DNA from: Mycoplasmatota bacterium
GTDB lineage: Bacteria > Bacillota_I > Bacilli_A > Acholeplasmatales > Acholeplasmataceae
NCBI GenBank assembly: GCA_024650045.1
Contig: JANKMU010000008.1
Span: forward strand, 31,256-68,607
DNA length: 37,352 nt
Direction: 5' to 3'
A program made the position numbers and the translations under genes. The notes below the pieces were generated by a model. It saw only the letters and a list, made by a program, of their open reading frames with translations, searched no databases and had not been told where the DNA came from. Every line of letters begins with the position of its first letter. Position 1 is the first letter of the stretch. Of the stretch, positions 10,487 through 20,226 are shown one piece after another.

Positions 10487-10523
10487 AATAAAAGACTCCA
10501 ACAACAAAAATGTTGTAGAAGTC
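10487..10523 (-). terminator. Riboswitch expression-platform terminator
   Basis: On the - strand GACTTCTACAAC (10512-10523) pairs with GTTGTTGGAGTC (10494-10505) except for one U-U mismatch, loop ATTTTT, followed by TTTTATTT. Its left arm includes GACTTC, which the aptamer needs for its pseudoknot, so ligand binding should prevent the terminator and turn the gene on. Confidence 0.85.
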
Positions 10524-10575
10524 ATTAGCCTACGCGGTTTTAGCTTTTGCTAAGGGAGACGTTCATTCCCTGGGT
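10512..10575 (-). ncRNA. Fluoride riboswitch (crcB motif)
   Basis: The RNA begins AGGGAAUG, closes a first stem with UCCCU (AGGGA/UCCCU), carries a small UAGC-AAAA-GCUA hairpin, and then ACC-GCGUA-GGC followed by the hallmark UAAUGACUUCUAC. I compared it with the Bacillus cereus crcB leader from memory, which ends its aptamer with UAAUGACUCCUACC and also continues into a terminator. The loop GAACGUC of stem 1 can pair with GACUUC as the pseudoknot with one bulged C. The 12-nt hairpin insertion between stems and the bulge are deviations to note. It sits between a strong promoter and an antiporter gene. Confidence 0.88.
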
Positions 10576-10578
10576 TAT

Positions 10579-10606
10579 ATTATAAAGATTTATGTATGGT
10601 TGTCAA
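10579..10606 (-). promoter_or_regulatory. Promoter of riboswitch-antiporter transcript
   Basis: Perfect TTGACA (10601-10606) and TATAAT (10579-10584) with a 16-nt spacer. The -35 overlaps the TGA stop codon of the upstream DUF1295 gene. Transcription would start a few bases before the aptamer. Confidence 0.88.
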
Positions 10607-11556: not shown

Positions 11557-12090
11557 TTATTTTAATTTAATGTACTTCTCATATTGATTAACAAGTAAAT
11601 TTAATAACTGATTAAAGTGTTTCTTAATGTCAATTGATTGATGAAGTTCATTCTTAATTGAAGTTGCATCAAAGTTTTTAAATTCAGTTTGATTGATATT
11701 GAGACCGATACCTATAACCACATAATCGAAATTATTCTCTGATGACTTTGTTTCAATTAAAATGCCACAAATCTTCTTATCACCTACATATAAATCGTTA
11801 GGTTCTTTAAAATAAACGTTAATGCCTTGATTTTGAAGATGTTGAACTAGTGTTTCCATTACCCATAATTTAATTTCATATGCTTTTGAAACGTTAATAT
11901 CTTTTAAAAGAATAGAAAACAGTAGATTTTCATTAGGATTCGATTCCCATGTTCTATCATATTGTCCTCTACCTTGAGATTGAAAACTAGCTTTGATCAA
12001 TGTCATATGCGGAAAATAAGAGTAATTTTCTTTTAGAAAATCACTCGTTGATGTTAATGTATCAAATTCTAGTAATGTGTATGAAATCAT
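11557..12090 (-). CDS. birA: Biotin-[acetyl-CoA-carboxylase] ligase, catalytic domain only
   Basis: A 177-residue ligase that attaches biotin to the AccB lysine through biotinyl-AMP. Visible motifs are STSDFLKEN, SQGRGQYDRTWES (the GRGR loop, here GRGQ), LLFSILLKD, KEPNDLYVGDKKICGILIE (the KWPND motif with Glu for Trp) and VVIGIGLNIN. There is neither the N-terminal winged helix of bifunctional BirA repressors nor the usual C-terminal SH3-like domain, so it is shorter than most (about 230-320) and cannot act as a repressor. It overlaps fabZ by 4 nt and is the last gene of the acc-fab cluster, next to its substrate's genes. Confidence 0.92.
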   Translation of the reverse strand: MISYTLLEFDTLTSTSDFLKENYSYFPHMTLIKASFQSQGRGQYDRTWESNPNENLLFSILLKDINVSKAYEIKLWVMETLVQHLQNQGINVYFKEPNDLYVGDKKICGILIETKSSENNFDYVVIGIGLNINQTEFKNFDATSIKNELHQSIDIKKHFNQLLNLLVNQYEKYIKLK

Positions 12091-12518
12091 AATTCTCCTA
12101 TTGCAAATGAAATTTCCGCTTCACAAACCAATTGGTCATTAACATAAGCTCTAGCTAAGCCAAAACCAAAGGATTTACGTATTTTAGTTAGTTCACATTT
12201 TAAAATGAGTTTATCTCCAGGTACAACACTCTTTCTAAATTTCGCTTTTTGAATACCTGTAAAATAAGCAATATTATTTTTGTATTGAGGATCTGATAAT
12301 AAGATAACAGCGCCAACTTGTGCAAGTGATTCGATAATTAAAACACCTGGCATCACTGGTTTTCCCGGAAAATGACCTTCGAAAAAGTAATCATCTTCTG
12401 TTACGTATTTTACACCAACACCATATTTTAAGCTTTCAAGTTCAATGATTTCATCTAAAAATAAGAATGGATGACGATGTGGAATAATTTGTTTGATTTC
12501 TTCTTTATTTAGTTTCAT
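12087..12518 (-). CDS. fabZ: 3-hydroxyacyl-ACP dehydratase FabZ
   Basis: A 143-residue hot-dog-fold dehydratase that removes water from 3-hydroxyacyl-ACP. The active-site His is in PHRHPFLFLDEI, and the catalytic Glu region is FFEGHFPGKPVMPGVLIIESLAQ. Full family length. It overlaps both neighbours by 4 nt (fabF upstream, birA downstream), consistent with translational coupling in the operon. Confidence 0.96.
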   Translation of the reverse strand: MKLNKEEIKQIIPHRHPFLFLDEIIELESLKYGVGVKYVTEDDYFFEGHFPGKPVMPGVLIIESLAQVGAVILLSDPQYKNNIAYFTGIQKAKFRKSVVPGDKLILKCELTKIRKSFGFGLARAYVNDQLVCEAEISFAIGEL

Positions 12519-13753
12519 GAGTTCACCTTCTTAAAAATAATTGCTGCATTTTGACCACCAAACCCGATATTGACATTCATAACGTAGTTTAGTTCTTTTT
12601 CTACAAACTTATTAGGTGTGTAATCTAGATCACATTCAGGATCTGGAGATTCTAAATTGATTGTTGGGGGTATTTTACTGGTTTGAAGTGCTTTAATAGC
12701 AGCTATGGTTTCAATGGCTCCTGCAGCCCCTAAAGCGTGGCCAGTCATTGATTTTGTTGAGCTAATACTGACTTGATAAGCTGCATCTCCCATAGCTTTT
12801 TTAATACCCAATGTTTCATATTTATCGTTTAATACTGTTGATGTTCCGTGTGCATTGATATAACCAAGTTCTTCAGGTTTAATATTAGCATCTTCCATAG
12901 CAAGTCTTAAACACATTTCAATACCTTCGGCATTTTCATCAGGTGCTGTCATATGGAATGCATCTGATGTTGTTCCATATCCTACCATTTCAGCTAAAAT
13001 AGGAGCATTTCTCTTTTTTGCATGTTCATATTCTTCTAAGATTAATGTTCCTGCACCTTCTGCAATAACAAATCCTGTTCTTCTTGTGTCAAATGGAACG
13101 GATGCGGCATTTGGATCGTTTGAGAAATTCAAAGCCTTTAGACTTGAAAATCCACCTAATCCTAATTCGTTAATTGGTGCTTCAGCACCACCGGTGATTG
13201 CAACATCAATATAGCCATCTCTAATATATCTAAATGCTTCTCCTATGGAGTTAGTCGCTGCTGAACAAGCAGTTACTTGAGGCATATTTGGACCTTTTGC
13301 TTGATATTTAATACCAATTTTTGCTCCTATTAAATTGATAATTGAATTAGGAATAAAAAATGGAGATATTCGATCTTGTCCACGGGTGACACTGACTTTT
13401 GTTTCTTCAAAAATGGTCGTTAAACCACCAATACCACTACCGATAAATGTACCAACTCTAAATGGGTTAAGTTGACTAATGTCTAATTTAGACTGCACGT
13501 ATGCTTCATGCGTAGCAACTAATGCAAGATTCATCACACGATCATTTCTTCTGATTTCTTTTTTGTCTAAAAAATCTTCGAAATTTAAGTTTTTAACTTC
13601 TCCTGCGATTTTTACTTTCCATGTTTCGACATCATAAAGTGTAATGAAATCAATTCCATTTTTACCATCAATTAAATTTTTAAATGATTCTTCAACGGTG
13701 TTTCCAACAGGACTTACTAGTCCCATCCCTGTTACAACAACTCTTTTTTTCAT
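12515..13753 (-). CDS. fabF: 3-oxoacyl-ACP synthase II (FabF)
   Basis: A 412-residue condensing enzyme that extends acyl-ACP with malonyl-ACP. The thiolase-fold catalytic triad is intact: Cys163 in VTACSAATNSIGEA, His in NAHGTSTVLND and His in KSMTGHALGAAG. The N-terminal MKKRVVVTGMGLVSPVG and the C-terminal NVNIGFGGQNAAIIF are typical. The only synthase of the FabF/FabB type in the window. It follows fabG after an 8-nt gap and overlaps fabZ by 4 nt. Confidence 0.97.
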   Translation of the reverse strand: MKKRVVVTGMGLVSPVGNTVEESFKNLIDGKNGIDFITLYDVETWKVKIAGEVKNLNFEDFLDKKEIRRNDRVMNLALVATHEAYVQSKLDISQLNPFRVGTFIGSGIGGLTTIFEETKVSVTRGQDRISPFFIPNSIINLIGAKIGIKYQAKGPNMPQVTACSAATNSIGEAFRYIRDGYIDVAITGGAEAPINELGLGGFSSLKALNFSNDPNAASVPFDTRRTGFVIAEGAGTLILEEYEHAKKRNAPILAEMVGYGTTSDAFHMTAPDENAEGIEMCLRLAMEDANIKPEELGYINAHGTSTVLNDKYETLGIKKAMGDAAYQVSISSTKSMTGHALGAAGAIETIAAIKALQTSKIPPTINLESPDPECDLDYTPNKFVEKELNYVMNVNIGFGGQNAAIIFKKVNS

Positions 13754-13761
13754 CTTTTCAC

Positions 13762-14511
13762 CTACATCACTAATCCGCCATCAACCTCTAAGGTGTGGCC
13801 AGTTATATAACTTGCTTCTTCGCTTGCAAGGAAGCATACTGCATATGCAACTTCATTAGATTGTCCAAAGCGTTTAAGAGGTATTTGATTACTCCATGCT
13901 TGTGTGACTTCCTCTGATAGTTTTTTTGTCATTTCTGTTTCAATAAATCCAGGAGCGATAGCATTTACAGTTACGCCTCGAGATGCAAACTCTCTTGCTA
14001 ATGCTTTTGTTAATCCTATAACACCTGCTTTTGCAGAACTATAATTAGATTGCCCTGCGTTTCCTAAAACACCTGAAACACTTGATATGTTAATGATTCT
14101 TCCATAACCTGATTTAAGTAATGGTTTTGCTGCATGTTTTGATACGTTCCAAACGCCTTTTAAGTTGGTGTTGATGACGCGATCAAATTGCTCTTCATTC
14201 ATTCTCAGTATTAAAGCATCATCAGTGATGCCTGCATTGTTAACAACAATGTTGAGTGTTCCAAATTTGCTAATTGCTTCTTTAACAAGTTTTTCAGCAT
14301 CTTGATAATTTGAGACATCTGCTTGAACAGCATATGCATCGCCACCGAATGCTTTGATTTCTTCAACAAGTTCATTTGCTTTTTGTTCGCTTCTATTGTA
14401 ATTCAAGACAACTTTTGCGCCTCGTTTAGCGAGTTCTAAGGAAATGAATCTACCGATACCAGCAGCTCCACCAGTAACGATTGCTACTTTATTTTTTAAG
14501 TCCATGGTCAA
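13762..14511 (-). CDS. fabG: 3-oxoacyl-ACP reductase FabG
   Basis: A 249-residue short-chain dehydrogenase that reduces 3-oxoacyl-ACP with NADPH. TGGAAGIGRF binds the cofactor, NNAGITDD is conserved, and the catalytic residues are Ser144 (NISSVSG), Tyr157 and Lys161 (NYSSAK). The likely start is a TTG at 14511, which lies 7 nt after AAAGGA; the in-frame ATG at 14505 would be 13 nt away. Either way it overlaps the end of fabD. Confidence 0.95.
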   Translation of the reverse strand: MTMDLKNKVAIVTGGAAGIGRFISLELAKRGAKVVLNYNRSEQKANELVEEIKAFGGDAYAVQADVSNYQDAEKLVKEAISKFGTLNIVVNNAGITDDALILRMNEEQFDRVINTNLKGVWNVSKHAAKPLLKSGYGRIINISSVSGVLGNAGQSNYSSAKAGVIGLTKALAREFASRGVTVNAIAPGFIETEMTKKLSEEVTQAWSNQIPLKRFGQSNEVAYAVCFLASEEASYITGHTLEVDGGLVM

Positions 14512-15433
14512 TTAACCATCCTTTCAACGTATCTAACTCACTTGCTCTATCGAGATGAGTAACTTCTACATTCATATTTATTTTTTTAATGAGTCCACTT
14601 AAAACCGTTCCTGGTCCTATTTCTACAAAATGGGTTATACCATCTTCAATCATCTGGTTAATCATTTGTTCAAAATAAACAGGTGATTGGATTTGTTTTC
14701 TCATCTCATCAAAAAGCTTTGATGATTCGAGTGGTTTAGCTGTTGTGTTCATATAGAGTGGCACAACTGGCTCTTGATAACTTTCTTTTTTAATAAATTC
14801 ATAAACTTGATCAGCTGCTTGTTTCATTAATGGTGAATGGAAAGCTCCACTGACATTAAGTTCTAAAGCACGTTTAGCACCTAATGATTTGGCAATTTCC
14901 ATTGCCTTTAGGACTGCTTTTTCTTCGCCACTAATAACAACTTGAACAGGTGAATTGTAGTTAGCACTAACAACGATACCTTGATTAGATGCTTCATGAC
15001 AAGCTTGATCAACTAAATCTTTATTTAATCCGATGATTGCAGCCATTTTGCCTGGATTATTTAAGGCACATGTTTGCATATGTTGCGCACGATAATTAAC
15101 GATTTTCATGATTTGTTCAAAATTAAATACTTGAGCAGCATAATATGCTCCATGTTCGCCTAGGCTAAATCCTGCAACTGCATCAACTTTTGCATTTAAT
15201 GTCAAAAATGCTTCATAAGCAAAAATAGTAGCAAGCATCATTAAAGGTTGCGTATATCTTGTATCATTGATTTTTCCATCCGTAGAAGATAACATGTTTC
15301 TAACATCATAACCTAATAGTTTCGATGCCATCACTTCTTTTTCTTTGAATTCTGGAAACATATCAACATAATCTAGACCCATATTTAAATATTGACTACC
15401 TTGTCCAACAAATACTAAAGCTAACTTTTTCAT
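14489..15433 (-). CDS. fabD: Malonyl-CoA:ACP transacylase FabD
   Basis: A 314-residue acyltransferase that loads malonate on acyl carrier protein. QGSQ near the N-terminus forms part of the oxyanion hole, the nucleophile is Ser90 in AGFSLGEHGAYY and the catalytic His is in NVSGAFHSPLM. C-terminal EIGPGTVLSGLIKKI is typical. It begins 10 nt after fabH and overlaps fabG by about 23 nt if the TTG start of fabG is used. Confidence 0.96.
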   Translation of the reverse strand: MKKLALVFVGQGSQYLNMGLDYVDMFPEFKEKEVMASKLLGYDVRNMLSSTDGKINDTRYTQPLMMLATIFAYEAFLTLNAKVDAVAGFSLGEHGAYYAAQVFNFEQIMKIVNYRAQHMQTCALNNPGKMAAIIGLNKDLVDQACHEASNQGIVVSANYNSPVQVVISGEEKAVLKAMEIAKSLGAKRALELNVSGAFHSPLMKQAADQVYEFIKKESYQEPVVPLYMNTTAKPLESSKLFDEMRKQIQSPVYFEQMINQMIEDGITHFVEIGPGTVLSGLIKKINMNVEVTHLDRASELDTLKGWLIDHGLKK

Positions 15434-15443
15434 GATTTATTCC

Positions 15444-16382
15444 TTATAATTGTAGAATTGCACTACCCCAAGTGAATCCTCCACCGAATGCAACTAACAA
15501 TATTTTTTTATTTTTAGTCTCATTTTGATCATAATATTCTGCAATAGTAATTGGAATACTTGCTGCTGAAGTATTTCCGTATTCACTTAAGTTTAACATA
15601 AATTTATCCATTGGAATACCCATGGATTTAGAAACGGATTGAATAATGCGTTCATTTGCTTGATGTGGAATAATCACATCGATATCTTCTATCGCTAATC
15701 CAGAGGATTCTAACACTTTATGAATCGCTTGTTCCATCGCATCGATGGCGAAAAGGTATACACGTTTTCCGTCCATTTTAATATGATTTACAACTGTTAA
15801 CGTATCGTTTGTATCTCCTCTTGCAGCATTAAAGAAAAATGCTTGATTTCTTTCATGATTTGATGGTTCTAAAATCATCGCGCCAGCTCCATCTCCAAAT
15901 AAGACGCATGTATTACGATCAGTATAATCAACAATTTTAGTTAATTGTTCGCCACCAATAACGAGTGCAGCTCTAAATCTACCTGTTTGTAATAAAGATG
16001 CAGCTGTTTCAAGTGCATAAACAAAACCTGTACACGCTGCATTAATATCAAAGCTCATCACTTCATGATTTAATCCTAATTTAGCTTGAACAAAATTGGC
16101 TGTTGATGGTGTCATTTGGTCACCAGTTATGGTTGCCATAATGATTAAATCAATTTTATTTTTATCATAATTCACACGATTGATTGCTTCCATAGCGGCT
16201 TTGTAAGCCATTTCGCTAGTTAATTCATCAACAGCACGATGTCTTGTTTTGATTCCTGTACGTGTTACAATCCATTCATCGGATGTATCGACTAATTTTT
16301 CTAAATCATCGTTAGTTATCAACGTTTCAGGTGCATACTTGCCACTTGAGATAACCTTAATCATTGGTTGGGTTGTTTTCAT
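15444..16382 (-). CDS. fabH: 3-oxoacyl-ACP synthase III (FabH)
   Basis: A 312-residue initiating condensing enzyme that joins acyl-CoA to malonyl-ACP. Cys117 (DINAACTGFVYAL), His in IIPHQANERII and Asn in EYGNTSAASIP make the triad. I use the ATG at 16382, 6 nt after AAGGAG; a longer frame from 16409 has no good ribosome site and adds nine residues unlike the family. The start lies inside accA, an overlap of 26 nt. Acyl-CoA preference (acetyl or branched) cannot be read from this. Confidence 0.95.
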   Translation of the reverse strand: MKTTQPMIKVISSGKYAPETLITNDDLEKLVDTSDEWIVTRTGIKTRHRAVDELTSEMAYKAAMEAINRVNYDKNKIDLIIMATITGDQMTPSTANFVQAKLGLNHEVMSFDINAACTGFVYALETAASLLQTGRFRAALVIGGEQLTKIVDYTDRNTCVLFGDGAGAMILEPSNHERNQAFFFNAARGDTNDTLTVVNHIKMDGKRVYLFAIDAMEQAIHKVLESSGLAIEDIDVIIPHQANERIIQSVSKSMGIPMDKFMLNLSEYGNTSAASIPITIAEYYDQNETKNKKILLVAFGGGFTWGSAILQL

Positions 16383-17199
16383 TTTCTTCTCCTTGTTCGA
16401 CAAACACACCCATCTTTCTATATTTTTTATATCTTTGATCTAATAATTTAGATGTAGAAAGTTTGGATAGTTTTGCAATAGATTTTGTTAATTCTTTTTT
16501 TAATGCTTTGATTCCAAAATCAGGATCAATATGTAGTCCTTCATTTTCTGGAATAATGGTATCAATAACACCAAAACCTAATAGGTCTTGTGCGGTTAAT
16601 TTCATAATACTAGCAGCGTGATCTGCTTTTGAACTATCTTTATAGATAATTGATGCATATCCTTCTGGTGATAAAATAGCATAAATACTATTTTCAAACA
16701 TCAAAACTTGATCACCAACACCGATTGCAAGTGCCCCACCGGATCCACCTTCACTTAATACAACTACGATAATAGGGGTCTTTAGACCCATCATCGATTT
16801 TAGGTTATAAGCAATCGCTTGAGCTTGTCCACGTTCTTCTGCACCAATACCCGGATAAGCACCCGGAGTATCAATAATGCAAATAATCGGTCGATTAAAT
16901 TTTTCTGCTTGTTTCATTAAACGTATCGCCTTGCGATACCCTTCAGGATGAGGCATTCCAAAATTATGCTTAATTTTTTCTTCTGTTGAAACACCTTTTT
17001 CTTCAGCTATTACAGTTACTGGAATACTATTAATCGTTCCAATACCACCAGTAATTGCGTGATCATCACCAAATCCTCGATCGCCATGTAGTTCAATAAA
17101 ATCTGTAAAAAGCTCTTTAATTAAATACTGACTCGTCGGTCGTTTAGGGTGTCTAGCAAGCTTGACTTTCTGCCATGCTGTGTTGATCGTTTCACTCAT
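16357..17199 (-). CDS. accA: Acetyl-CoA carboxylase carboxyltransferase alpha subunit
   Basis: A 280-residue subunit that together with AccD transfers CO2 from carboxybiotin to acetyl-CoA. ELHGDRGFGDD, GYRKAIRLMKQAEKF, IDTPGAYPGIGAEERGQ and SEGGSGGALAIGVGD are the conserved blocks that bind carboxybiotin and CoA. ATG 17199 comes one base after the accD stop with AAGAGG upstream; an in-frame GTG at 17208 is possible. Normal length for Gram-positives (about 320 in E. coli). Confidence 0.96.
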   Translation of the reverse strand: MSETINTAWQKVKLARHPKRPTSQYLIKELFTDFIELHGDRGFGDDHAITGGIGTINSIPVTVIAEEKGVSTEEKIKHNFGMPHPEGYRKAIRLMKQAEKFNRPIICIIDTPGAYPGIGAEERGQAQAIAYNLKSMMGLKTPIIVVVLSEGGSGGALAIGVGDQVLMFENSIYAILSPEGYASIIYKDSSKADHAASIMKLTAQDLLGFGVIDTIIPENEGLHIDPDFGIKALKKELTKSIAKLSKLSTSKLLDQRYKKYRKMGVFVEQGEENENNPTND

Positions 17200-17200
17200 G

Positions 17201-18076
17201 CTATTCACCTCTTCCTTGATGCAATTGTAATAATTTATACAATGTTTTTCTCATATCTTTACGGTGAACAACCATATCGACTTGACCATGATCTAGTTGA
17301 AATTGATCCGTTTGGAATCCGTCTGGTAAGTCTTGTCTAATCGTTTGCTTAATAACACGTGCACCAGCAAAACCTATAAGTGATGACTTTTCAGCAATGT
17401 TAATATCGCCTAGTGAAGCGAAACTTGCTGCTACACCACCAGTTGTTGGATTGGTTAAAACACTAATAAATAATAACTTTTTTTGATCGAAATAGTGAAG
17501 TGCAGCACTTGTTTTTGCCATTTGCATTAATGATAATATGCCTTCTTGCATACGTGCTCCACCTGATGCTGAAAAAATAATGAGTGGTAGCTTTTGATCC
17601 ATTGCATACTCAATCAATCTAGTTACTTTTTCACCAACAGCACTTCCCATACTTCCCATCATAAAATTACTATCAAGTATACCAATTGCACAAGGTAGAC
17701 CCACGATGGTTGCCGTTCCACTTAAAAAGGCTTCATTCATTTTTGATAATTTCATACCTTTTTTAATCTTATCTGGATAATCTGGCATTTCAAGTGGATT
17801 TGATGACATAACCATACGATCTATTTCTTTAAAACTACCTTGATCAACAGTTAAATCTAGTCTTTTAAAAGCTCCCATTCTAAAATGAAATTCACAATAA
17901 GGACAAATCGAATGATTTGCCTCTAGAGTTTTTTCATAAATGGCAGCACTACAGTGCTCACATTTAACAAACAAGCCATCAGGAATATCGATTGGCTCAT
18001 AATTTGTTTGTTTTTTGCGGATATTTTTTTTGAAATCTTCTAATTTACTTTTACGATCACTTAAAAAATCATTCAC
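17201..18076 (-). CDS. accD: Acetyl-CoA carboxylase carboxyltransferase beta subunit
   Basis: A 291-residue subunit. The four-cysteine zinc ribbon CEHCSAAIYEK...SICPYCEFHF (about residues 38-62) precedes the crotonase-like domain with SASGGARMQEGILSLMQMAK and NPTTGGVAASFA. Zinc-finger cysteines are complete. Overlaps accC by 8 nt. Confidence 0.96.
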   Translation of the reverse strand: MNDFLSDRKSKLEDFKKNIRKKQTNYEPIDIPDGLFVKCEHCSAAIYEKTLEANHSICPYCEFHFRMGAFKRLDLTVDQGSFKEIDRMVMSSNPLEMPDYPDKIKKGMKLSKMNEAFLSGTATIVGLPCAIGILDSNFMMGSMGSAVGEKVTRLIEYAMDQKLPLIIFSASGGARMQEGILSLMQMAKTSAALHYFDQKKLLFISVLTNPTTGGVAASFASLGDINIAEKSSLIGFAGARVIKQTIRQDLPDGFQTDQFQLDHGQVDMVVHRKDMRKTLYKLLQLHQGRGE

Positions 18077-19433
18077 GGTTTTCAGCCTCCACTAATACAT
18101 TGAAGCGCGCTATAAAACCAGTATCATACTGACCTTTGATAAAGTCAGGATTATGCATAATTAAATATTGATACTCAATATTCGTTGCGATGCCTTCAAC
18201 AACAAATTGTTCAAGGGCAACTCGCATTTTTTTAATCGCTTCTCTTCTCGTTGGAGCATGGACAATCAGTTTTGCAATCATTGAATCATAAAAAGGAGGT
18301 ATTTCATATCCTGGATATATGTGTGTATCTATACGAATACCTAATCCACCAGGAAATAAAATATTATTGATTTTTCCAGGAGTAGGAATAAATCCCTTCA
18401 TTGCATTTTCAGCATTGATTCGACACTCGATTGCATGACCATTAATCTTTAAATCCCTTTGTTTAAAGGATAACTCCTTACCATAAGCAACTTTGATTTG
18501 CTCTTTAACAAGATCAATTCCAGTAATAGCTTCTGTTACAGGGTGCTCAACTTGGATTCTTGTATTCATTTCAATAAAGTAAAAATTACCCTTTGAATCA
18601 ACAATAAACTCCATCGTCCCTGCATTAACATAATCGATAGCCTTAGCCAACTTGATTGATGCTGCACCAATTCTTCTTCTTAACATATCATTTAAGACAG
18701 GTGAAGGTGCTTCTTCAATCATTTTTTGATTTCTTCTTTGCATTGAACAATCTCGTTCAAATAAATGAACAACGTTGCCTTTTGTATCTGCCATTATTTG
18801 AACTTCGATATGTCTTGGAGATTCAATAAATTTTTCAATATATAAAGCTTTATCACCAAAACTGGTTTCAGCTTCCATTGATGTACGTTCAAAAGCACTC
18901 AAAAACTCTTCGTCTGAGCGCACAATACTAATCCCACGACCACCGCCTCCACTTGAGGCTTTGATCATTACAGGATATCCGATTTTTTTAGCTATTTTTA
19001 GTCCTTCGTGGACATCTTCGACAACACCGTCACTACCTTCTACGATAGGCACTCCATTTTCTTTTGCAATTTGTCTAGCTGATGCTTTATCACCAATGAG
19101 GCTAATCGTTTTAGATTTTGGACCAATAAAGATAATATTACATCTTTCAACCATTTCAACAAACTCACTATTTTCAGATAAGAATCCGTATCCCGGATGA
19201 ATTGCATTACATCCTGTAGAAATTGCAGCACTTAAGACGCTATTCATATTTAAATAGCTTTGTTTACTTTGATTTCCACCTATACAGATTGCTTCATCTG
19301 CTAACTTAACATGCAAACTTGTTTCATCAGCTATTGAATATACAGCAACCGTTTCAATCCCAAGTTCTTTTGCAGCACGAATCACACGAACCGCTATCTC
19401 ACCACGATTCGCAATTAAGATCTTATTTTTCAT
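18069..19433 (-). CDS. accC: Biotin carboxylase AccC
   Basis: A 454-residue ATP-grasp enzyme that carboxylates the biotin on AccB. NRGEIAVRVIRAAKELGIETVAVYS is the N-terminal lobe, KASSGGGGRGI is the ATP-binding glycine loop, HIEVQIMAD and FIEMNTRIQVEHPVTE are catalytic blocks. I use ATG 19433, which overlaps accB by 11 nt and has GGTGA 5 nt upstream; a GTG at 19448 would add five residues. It ends within accD. Confidence 0.97.
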   Translation of the reverse strand: MKNKILIANRGEIAVRVIRAAKELGIETVAVYSIADETSLHVKLADEAICIGGNQSKQSYLNMNSVLSAAISTGCNAIHPGYGFLSENSEFVEMVERCNIIFIGPKSKTISLIGDKASARQIAKENGVPIVEGSDGVVEDVHEGLKIAKKIGYPVMIKASSGGGGRGISIVRSDEEFLSAFERTSMEAETSFGDKALYIEKFIESPRHIEVQIMADTKGNVVHLFERDCSMQRRNQKMIEEAPSPVLNDMLRRRIGAASIKLAKAIDYVNAGTMEFIVDSKGNFYFIEMNTRIQVEHPVTEAITGIDLVKEQIKVAYGKELSFKQRDLKINGHAIECRINAENAMKGFIPTPGKINNILFPGGLGIRIDTHIYPGYEIPPFYDSMIAKLIVHAPTRREAIKKMRVALEQFVVEGIATNIEYQYLIMHNPDFIKGQYDTGFIARFNVLVEAENRE

Positions 19434-19869
19434 TTTTGTCACCGACACGCATTAGTGCATGATTATAACCTACGACTTCACCATTATGCACAAAAACTTC
19501 CTTGATGACACCGTCATAAGGAGACGTTATTTCGTTCATAATTTTCATCGCTTCTATAATACACACGACTTGACCTTTTTTAACCTGCTGACCAACTTCA
19601 ACGAAAGGTTTTCCGTTAGGTGTTGCAGATGCATAATAGGTTCCTACGAGTGGTGATTGAATGACTGTATGATTGTTTTGCTTTAAATTTGCTTGTTGAT
19701 TGGTTGTTTGGTTTTCATTTACCTCTTCTTTTGAATCTCCATTGACAACAATATGGTTGTCCTTATTTTTTGAGAGTCTTAATTTAAAATTATCCATTTC
19801 AAGTTCAAGAGACATCAAAGATGAACTCTCGAAATCTTTGATGATGTTTTGTATTTCTTTAATTGTCAT
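19423..19869 (-). CDS. accB: Biotin carboxyl carrier protein AccB
   Basis: A 148-residue carrier. A short N-terminal alpha region (1-33) and a Gln/Asn-rich flexible linker (about 40-68) lead to the biotinyl domain, in which Lys109 of IIEAMKIMNEI receives biotin from BirA. First gene of the operon. The ribosome site is weak: there is no AGGAGG-like sequence within 15 nt of the ATG, and an unrelated 11-codon reading frame starts at about 19891 and overlaps the start. Together with the long leader this suggests control at translation. Confidence 0.94.
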   Translation of the reverse strand: MTIKEIQNIIKDFESSSLMSLELEMDNFKLRLSKNKDNHIVVNGDSKEEVNENQTTNQQANLKQNNHTVIQSPLVGTYYASATPNGKPFVEVGQQVKKGQVVCIIEAMKIMNEITSPYDGVIKEVFVHNGEVVGYNHALMRVGDKNEK

Positions 19870-20137
19870 ATATATTTACCATTTCACTTTTCATTTGTTT
19901 TTTAAATCGTTTTCTTCACCAAAAATCTATCTGAAAGGTGTGTTCAAGTCATCAAGATTAGACTAGATAGTATTTAAGATGTTTAAAGCTCAAATGACAG
20001 TTTATTTATCGAGCATGTTTCAAATAATTATATCCCCAAAAAATCAACTAAATAAACTACCATTCCATTGTTCGTAGCAGCACTCCCTTCGCTTTGCATT
20101 TCAAATGATTTGAAATTCAAAGAATATACCTGAGTTT
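19870..20137 (-). promoter_or_regulatory. Long structured leader of the acc-fab operon (unassigned RNA)
   Basis: The gap of 366 nt between accB and the next gene holds a leader of about 260 nt. Visible helices on the - strand: (1) 20092-20122, a hairpin of CTTTG/CAAAG plus a perfect 8-bp ATTTCAAA/TTTGAAAT with a 3-nt loop and one mismatch; (2) GCGAAGGGAGTGCTGCTACG and then a CTAC/GTAG pair; (3) AGTTTATTTA (20049-20058) paired with TAAATAAACT (19999-20008), 10 bp; (4) CTATCT/AGATAG (19927-19970) enclosing AGTC/GACT. No rho-independent terminator is visible in it. It does not match any riboswitch class I can recall. It may sense a product of fatty-acid synthesis, but that is inference. Confidence 0.5.
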
Positions 20138-20165
20138 ATTCTATCATATATTAACATTATGTCAA
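20138..20165 (-). promoter_or_regulatory. Promoter of the acc-fab operon
   Basis: TTGACA (20160-20165) and TAGAAT (20138-20143) on the - strand, 16-nt spacer; start near 20131. A cre-like sequence TGTAAACGGTTTTT lies just upstream at 20177-20190 (12 of 14 to a loose consensus), too weak to call. Confidence 0.75.
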
Positions 20166-20201
20166 CATTTTTAAAATGTAAACGGTTTTTTAACACAATT
20201 G

Positions 20202-20226
20202 AAAAAGCCTATGATATATCATAGGC
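20202..20226 (-). terminator. Terminator of the gnd-zwf operon
   Basis: A perfect 20-bp palindrome GCCTATGATATATCATAGGC (20207-20226) followed by TTTTT on the - strand, 10 nt past the stop codon of the dehydrogenase gene. Confidence 0.85.

Follow-up and report, generated by a model that had tools for sequence, protein, structure and literature searches.

Our comparative data imply that the segment 20090-19912 on the minus strand of the window (the whole stretch of 37,352 nt that was analysed) is a genuine structured RNA, evolutionarily conserved and covarying, which stands ahead of the acc-fab operon. The reading that we prefer, with a probability of roughly 55%, is that the operon is under two layers of control: FabT would act at the DNA, and the leader RNA would act in cis on the translation of accB. 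An earlier inspection of the window (the original prediction) had proposed that this operon may be controlled by RNA, and the analysis confirms it in so far as a conserved, covarying leader RNA, belonging to no known Rfam family, is found ahead of acc-fab.

The place and the length of the leader had been predicted correctly; the strand is the minus one, the original prediction having used plus-strand numbering. The first gene of the operon is accB for the biotin carboxyl carrier protein (19423-19869, minus strand; TIGR00531 above the cut-off), and the remainder on the same strand (accC, accD, accA, fabH, fabD, fabG, fabF, fabZ and birA; 11557-19448) follows it, with fabD, fabG and fabF named from sequence alone. 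Both accD and accA are intact within the operon. BirA had been described as lacking a DNA-binding domain, and it is indeed a protein of 177 aa whose family match covers the ligase part alone. A near-consensus promoter of the sigma-A type, TTGACA-16-TAGAAT (20138-20165, minus strand), is kept in all leaders; transcription would start near 20131, and the leader between this promoter and the accB start at 19869 comprises about 260 nt. The source genome falls into the same genus as Peloplasma aerotolerans, and its accB is 92% identical to the accB of that species.

Several other elements surround the leader and the operon. Upstream of the -35 box stands AAAACCGTTTACA (20177-20189, minus strand), which is conserved in Peloplasma leaders and takes the form AAACGCTTACA in a related Acholeplasmataceae genus; by its sequence it looks like one half of a cre site for CcpA, and it may connect fatty acid synthesis with carbon supply. 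The perfect hairpin GCCTATGATATATCATAGGC with a T run (20207-20226, minus strand) is the terminator of the upstream dehydrogenase gene, and relatives have a hairpin at the same place. Downstream of the operon, the fluoride riboswitch RF01734 is matched at 10509-10579 of the minus strand (35.4 bits, slightly over the gathering threshold), directly 5' of a cation/proton antiporter-like gene (10470-9277).

The folding energy of the single leader sequence is at chance level (z = -0.33 for the coding strand and -0.66 for the opposite strand) and is not significant alone; the structure became visible because the leader was compared across species. The leaders of 17 other Peloplasma species were retrieved via accB, and the 18 leaders compared in total, with a mean pairwise identity of 54%, have conserved blocks in a strictly fixed order, separated by variable stems. 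The helices were read from a MAFFT alignment (A1) and turned into a covariance model (R1), from which the 18-leader alignment A3 was obtained. In A3 standard pairs occupy 84.1% of the cells compared to 69.6 ± 1.1 in column shuffles, double changes are present at 27 of the 33 pairs, and pairing falls to 28-46% when one strand is slid by 1-3 columns. Since relatedness can inflate covariation counts, a tree-aware null was used, in which the same inferred changes were placed randomly on the leader tree in 500 simulations. Under this null 67.4 ± 2.5% of the cells are paired and 22 ± 6 cells carry double changes, versus 84% and 97 observed, and none of the 500 simulations matches the observed values on any measure. 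Alignment of the accB leaders of relatives was the check that the original prediction had itself suggested, and both conservation and covariation bear it out. The MAFFT-only alignment, which was not fitted to the structure, gave the same result with lower power (79.5% paired versus 70.9 ± 1.2), with the caveat that the structure itself had been read from those same sequences. Moreover, the leader helices hold 64 cells with G-U pairs versus 14 with A-C mismatches. Therefore, the selected molecule is the RNA of the accB strand.

The full-length match of the covariance model (19912-20090, minus strand) begins with the purine box GAAGGGAGUGCUGC (20077-20090), recognised by its conservation, in which the conserved purine block is GAAGGGAGUG (20090-20081); the box may fold into a small variable hairpin. 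The original prediction had pointed to a G-rich block, which did not hold: the GGGG in the loop of P2 is not conserved among relatives, and the conserved purines are those of the box. The strands of the long helix P2, identified by covariation, lie at 20049-20065 (5') and 19992-20008 (3'), so that the previously proposed 10-bp helix 19999-20008/20049-20058 is real and forms a part of it. The alignment reveals a semi-conserved motif UUGAAACAUGC in the P2 loop (20013-20023), and a similar GAACAC is present in the related genus. The second domain is built by P3, whose 5' strand (CAUC, internal loop, AAA, CUAUC; 19966-19981) and 3' strand (GAUAG, internal loop, GGUG; 19917-19931) covary around a conserved internal loop, and by the hairpin P4 inside it (19947-19964), which is variable in sequence between species. 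The nested helix placed at 19927-19970 by the original prediction is likewise real and corresponds to P3 and P4. At P4 a local hairpin is predicted in all 18 leaders, strong in most and very weak in L010 and L014; its covariation is weak, with 50% of the cells paired in A3, where this region is poorly aligned. An AU-rich link joins the P3/P4 domain to the accB ribosome site. We also considered a pseudoknot between GUG of the box and CAC of the P2 loop, which looked suggestive in L003, L004, L015 and L017 and was rejected because the other leaders are unsupportive.

No Rfam family matches the leader at gathering or at permissive thresholds, the latter search yielding chance matches alone (E 1.9 and 4.1), and a T-box or another Rfam family was rejected in view of the missing gathering-level covariance-model match. 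The acc-fab leader RNA is undescribed in Rfam. In 18 of the 20 Peloplasma genomes the covariance models find it once, and in each case it stands before accB; one of the other two gave no accB match, and the second has accB at a contig end. A second, weak match is seen in one Peloplasma genome (G016, E 0.02). A search of 160 genomes of the order with the covariance models gave nothing convincing beyond Peloplasma. The two best R2 matches outside the genus were rejected as chance, both lying within coding sequences of unrelated genes; R1 gave weaker matches as well, and the verdict covers the two R2 ones. At the sensitivity of the models the leader RNA is confined to one genus.

A related Acholeplasmataceae genus (L019, L020, L045 and L170) has its own conserved accB leader of about 200 nt with hairpins. 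These leaders follow the order operator, purine box, hairpin and second hairpin, show some compensatory changes, and have two TTTGANNNTCAA-type sites ahead of them that flank the promoter on both sides; our covariance models do not detect them. The accB leaders of other relatives are short, of some tens of nucleotides.

The layer at the DNA is indicated by the dyad at 20092-20122. It had been proposed as a 13-pair hairpin of the leader; the dyad exists, but its core (20121-20109) is a candidate FabT-type operator TTTGAATTTCAAA (20109-20121, minus strand), just 3' of the expected start site and outside the covarying RNA region. The palindrome of pneumococcal FabT has been published as ANTTTGACTGTNAAATT (PMC8406281). 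In many relatives the TTTGAATTTCAAA motif is located near the promoter of an acc-fab or acpP-acc operon. The home genome also has it before acpP and before a fakB-fabT operon, which encodes a MarR protein and a FakB/DegV protein that binds fatty acids; this operon is preceded by the motif in every Peloplasma locus examined. The best NCBIfam match of the MarR protein is FabT (113 bits, E 1e-32, under the curated cut-off of 200), and its best PDB match is FabT 6jbx (E 1e-21). Genome-wide, the motif count is little above the background (11 and 9, the reversed control giving 8 and 4), thus the assignment of the operator rests on its conserved position; it is kept as DNA at promoters of differing build. 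These data point to a FabT-type repressor with a predicted operator at the acc-fab promoter, as a part of a FabT-type regulon. The original prediction had seen no FapR gene, and FapR is indeed absent from the genome in a search that detected the B. subtilis positive control; FabT, however, is present, beyond what could be seen in the window. Control by RNA had been argued from the missing regulator, and this argument fails because a FabT-type repressor is encoded in the genome and has a predicted operator at the promoter.

The arrangement resembles the FabT regulon of Streptococcus, Enterococcus and Lactococcus, which is governed by a MarR-family repressor: a FabT homologue is present, and the same type of palindromic operator is found at the fatty acid operon, at acpP and at its own gene. 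In contrast to that regulon, fabT here is located in the fakB-fabT operon and does not head the fab operon, and downstream of the operator there is a long structured leader. At acpP (L150 around 1501, G000:C5:35439) the motif lies 5' of the apparent -35 box, unlike at acc-fab and fakB-fabT, where it is downstream of the start, and its effect at acpP may differ from that at the other two. A further FabT-type palindrome, TTTGAAGTTCAAA, occurs in the home genome shortly before a GGDEF-like gene (L153 around 1501, G000:C11:7442); it could be due to chance or be an additional FabT target.

We propose that the two layers would work as follows. At high levels of acyl-ACP or exogenous fatty acid, the FabT-type repressor would bind TTTGAATTTCAAA just past the start site and block transcription. 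The leader 20090-19912, once transcribed, would fold into the purine box, the long hairpin P2 and the second domain P3/P4, and would act in cis on the initiation of accB translation, switching a weak ribosome site between used and unused states on binding of a ligand or a protein. The ribosome-site region of accB, AAAAGUGAAAUGG (19879-19891, minus strand), is as poor as the original prediction had judged it; the weak form is conserved, and its flank is conserved too. No intrinsic terminator was found on the minus strand within the leader, therefore attenuation by such a terminator is unlikely, and this, together with the weak and conserved ribosome site, favours a translational mode. The main gap in the account of a translational switch is the absence of a conserved sequestering helix: the Peloplasma leaders revealed none that would mask the ribosome site of accB, and the predicted exposure of this site ranges from 0.25 to 0.82 depending on the species. 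Two further candidates were rejected: sequestration of the ribosome site by the leader's 5' end, which appears in single folds (the window and L014) and is not conserved, and a leader peptide (uORF) after the purine box, whose frame and stops differ between close relatives (18 leaders, compared by eye).

The fold could instead serve without sensing any signal, by protecting a very long essential mRNA or by providing the ribosome with a standby site. In favour of such a role, the accB ribosome site is itself weak and the purine box, located 210 nt upstream of accB, looks like an extended ribosome-binding sequence, yet stability hairpins seldom hold a fixed architecture and so many conserved unpaired positions as this leader does, and we remain doubtful.

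Two more specific readings are special cases of the two-layer control. According to the first, the leader is a metabolite riboswitch, which would bind a small molecule of the lipid pathway (malonyl-CoA, acetyl-CoA, CoA, biotin or similar) and set accB translation directly. Conserved unpaired nucleotides surround the covarying helices, and the element occurs nowhere but ahead of the committed step of the pathway. As in known metabolite riboswitches, it is a 5' leader with conserved loops between covarying helices, attached to a single biosynthetic operon; in contrast to them, it has no recognised expression platform and is limited to one gene and one genus, most riboswitches being wider, and FabT would already sense the end product. 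Metabolite sensing by the leader RNA, as the original prediction had imagined, is possible, and a new riboswitch class for a fatty-acid-synthesis metabolite (e.g., malonyl-CoA), acting on top of repression by FabT at the acc-fab promoter, is a tentative and rather improbable proposal. According to the second, a product of the operon, with the AccA/AccD carboxyltransferase as a candidate, or another RNA-binding protein would bind the leader and repress its own translation. The narrow distribution and the single target operon suit such autogenous control, and accD and accA are both present for it; we consider this reading unlikely. In E. coli the carboxyltransferase AccA/AccD is reported to autoregulate accA and accD post-transcriptionally, so the acetyl-CoA carboxylase genes would be controlled after transcription in both cases; to our knowledge, the E. 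coli system has no conserved covarying leader like the one before acc-fab.

That the dyads are DNA only, being operators of FabT and perhaps of other regulators with no functional RNA, is highly improbable: TTTGANNNTCAAA is indeed an operator-like motif common to several promoters, but the covarying region does not include the operator, P2 and P3 covary across tens of nucleotides, and G-U pairs are meaningless for double-stranded DNA, so that the covariation analysis contradicts this reading.

An orphan leader element of narrow range has been described in this bacterial order: uORFC-13-1, a motif that precedes aroF in Acholeplasma (PMC8632094); the acc-fab leader element was not found in that paper. 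Both are conserved elements restricted to a lineage, each placed before a single biosynthetic gene; the present one differs in having acc-fab as its target and in showing no conserved upstream reading frame. No leader RNA of an acc or fab operon came up in a literature search, which covered few subscription journals. We know of no established RNA element that senses this pathway and thereby controls the acc-fab operon of a bacterium. The covarying leader at the committed step, downstream of the FabT operator, offers a defined 180-nt RNA that is testable with lipid-pathway ligands and proteins. If our preferred reading is true, the synthesis of membrane lipids in these wall-less bacteria would be under two-layer control.
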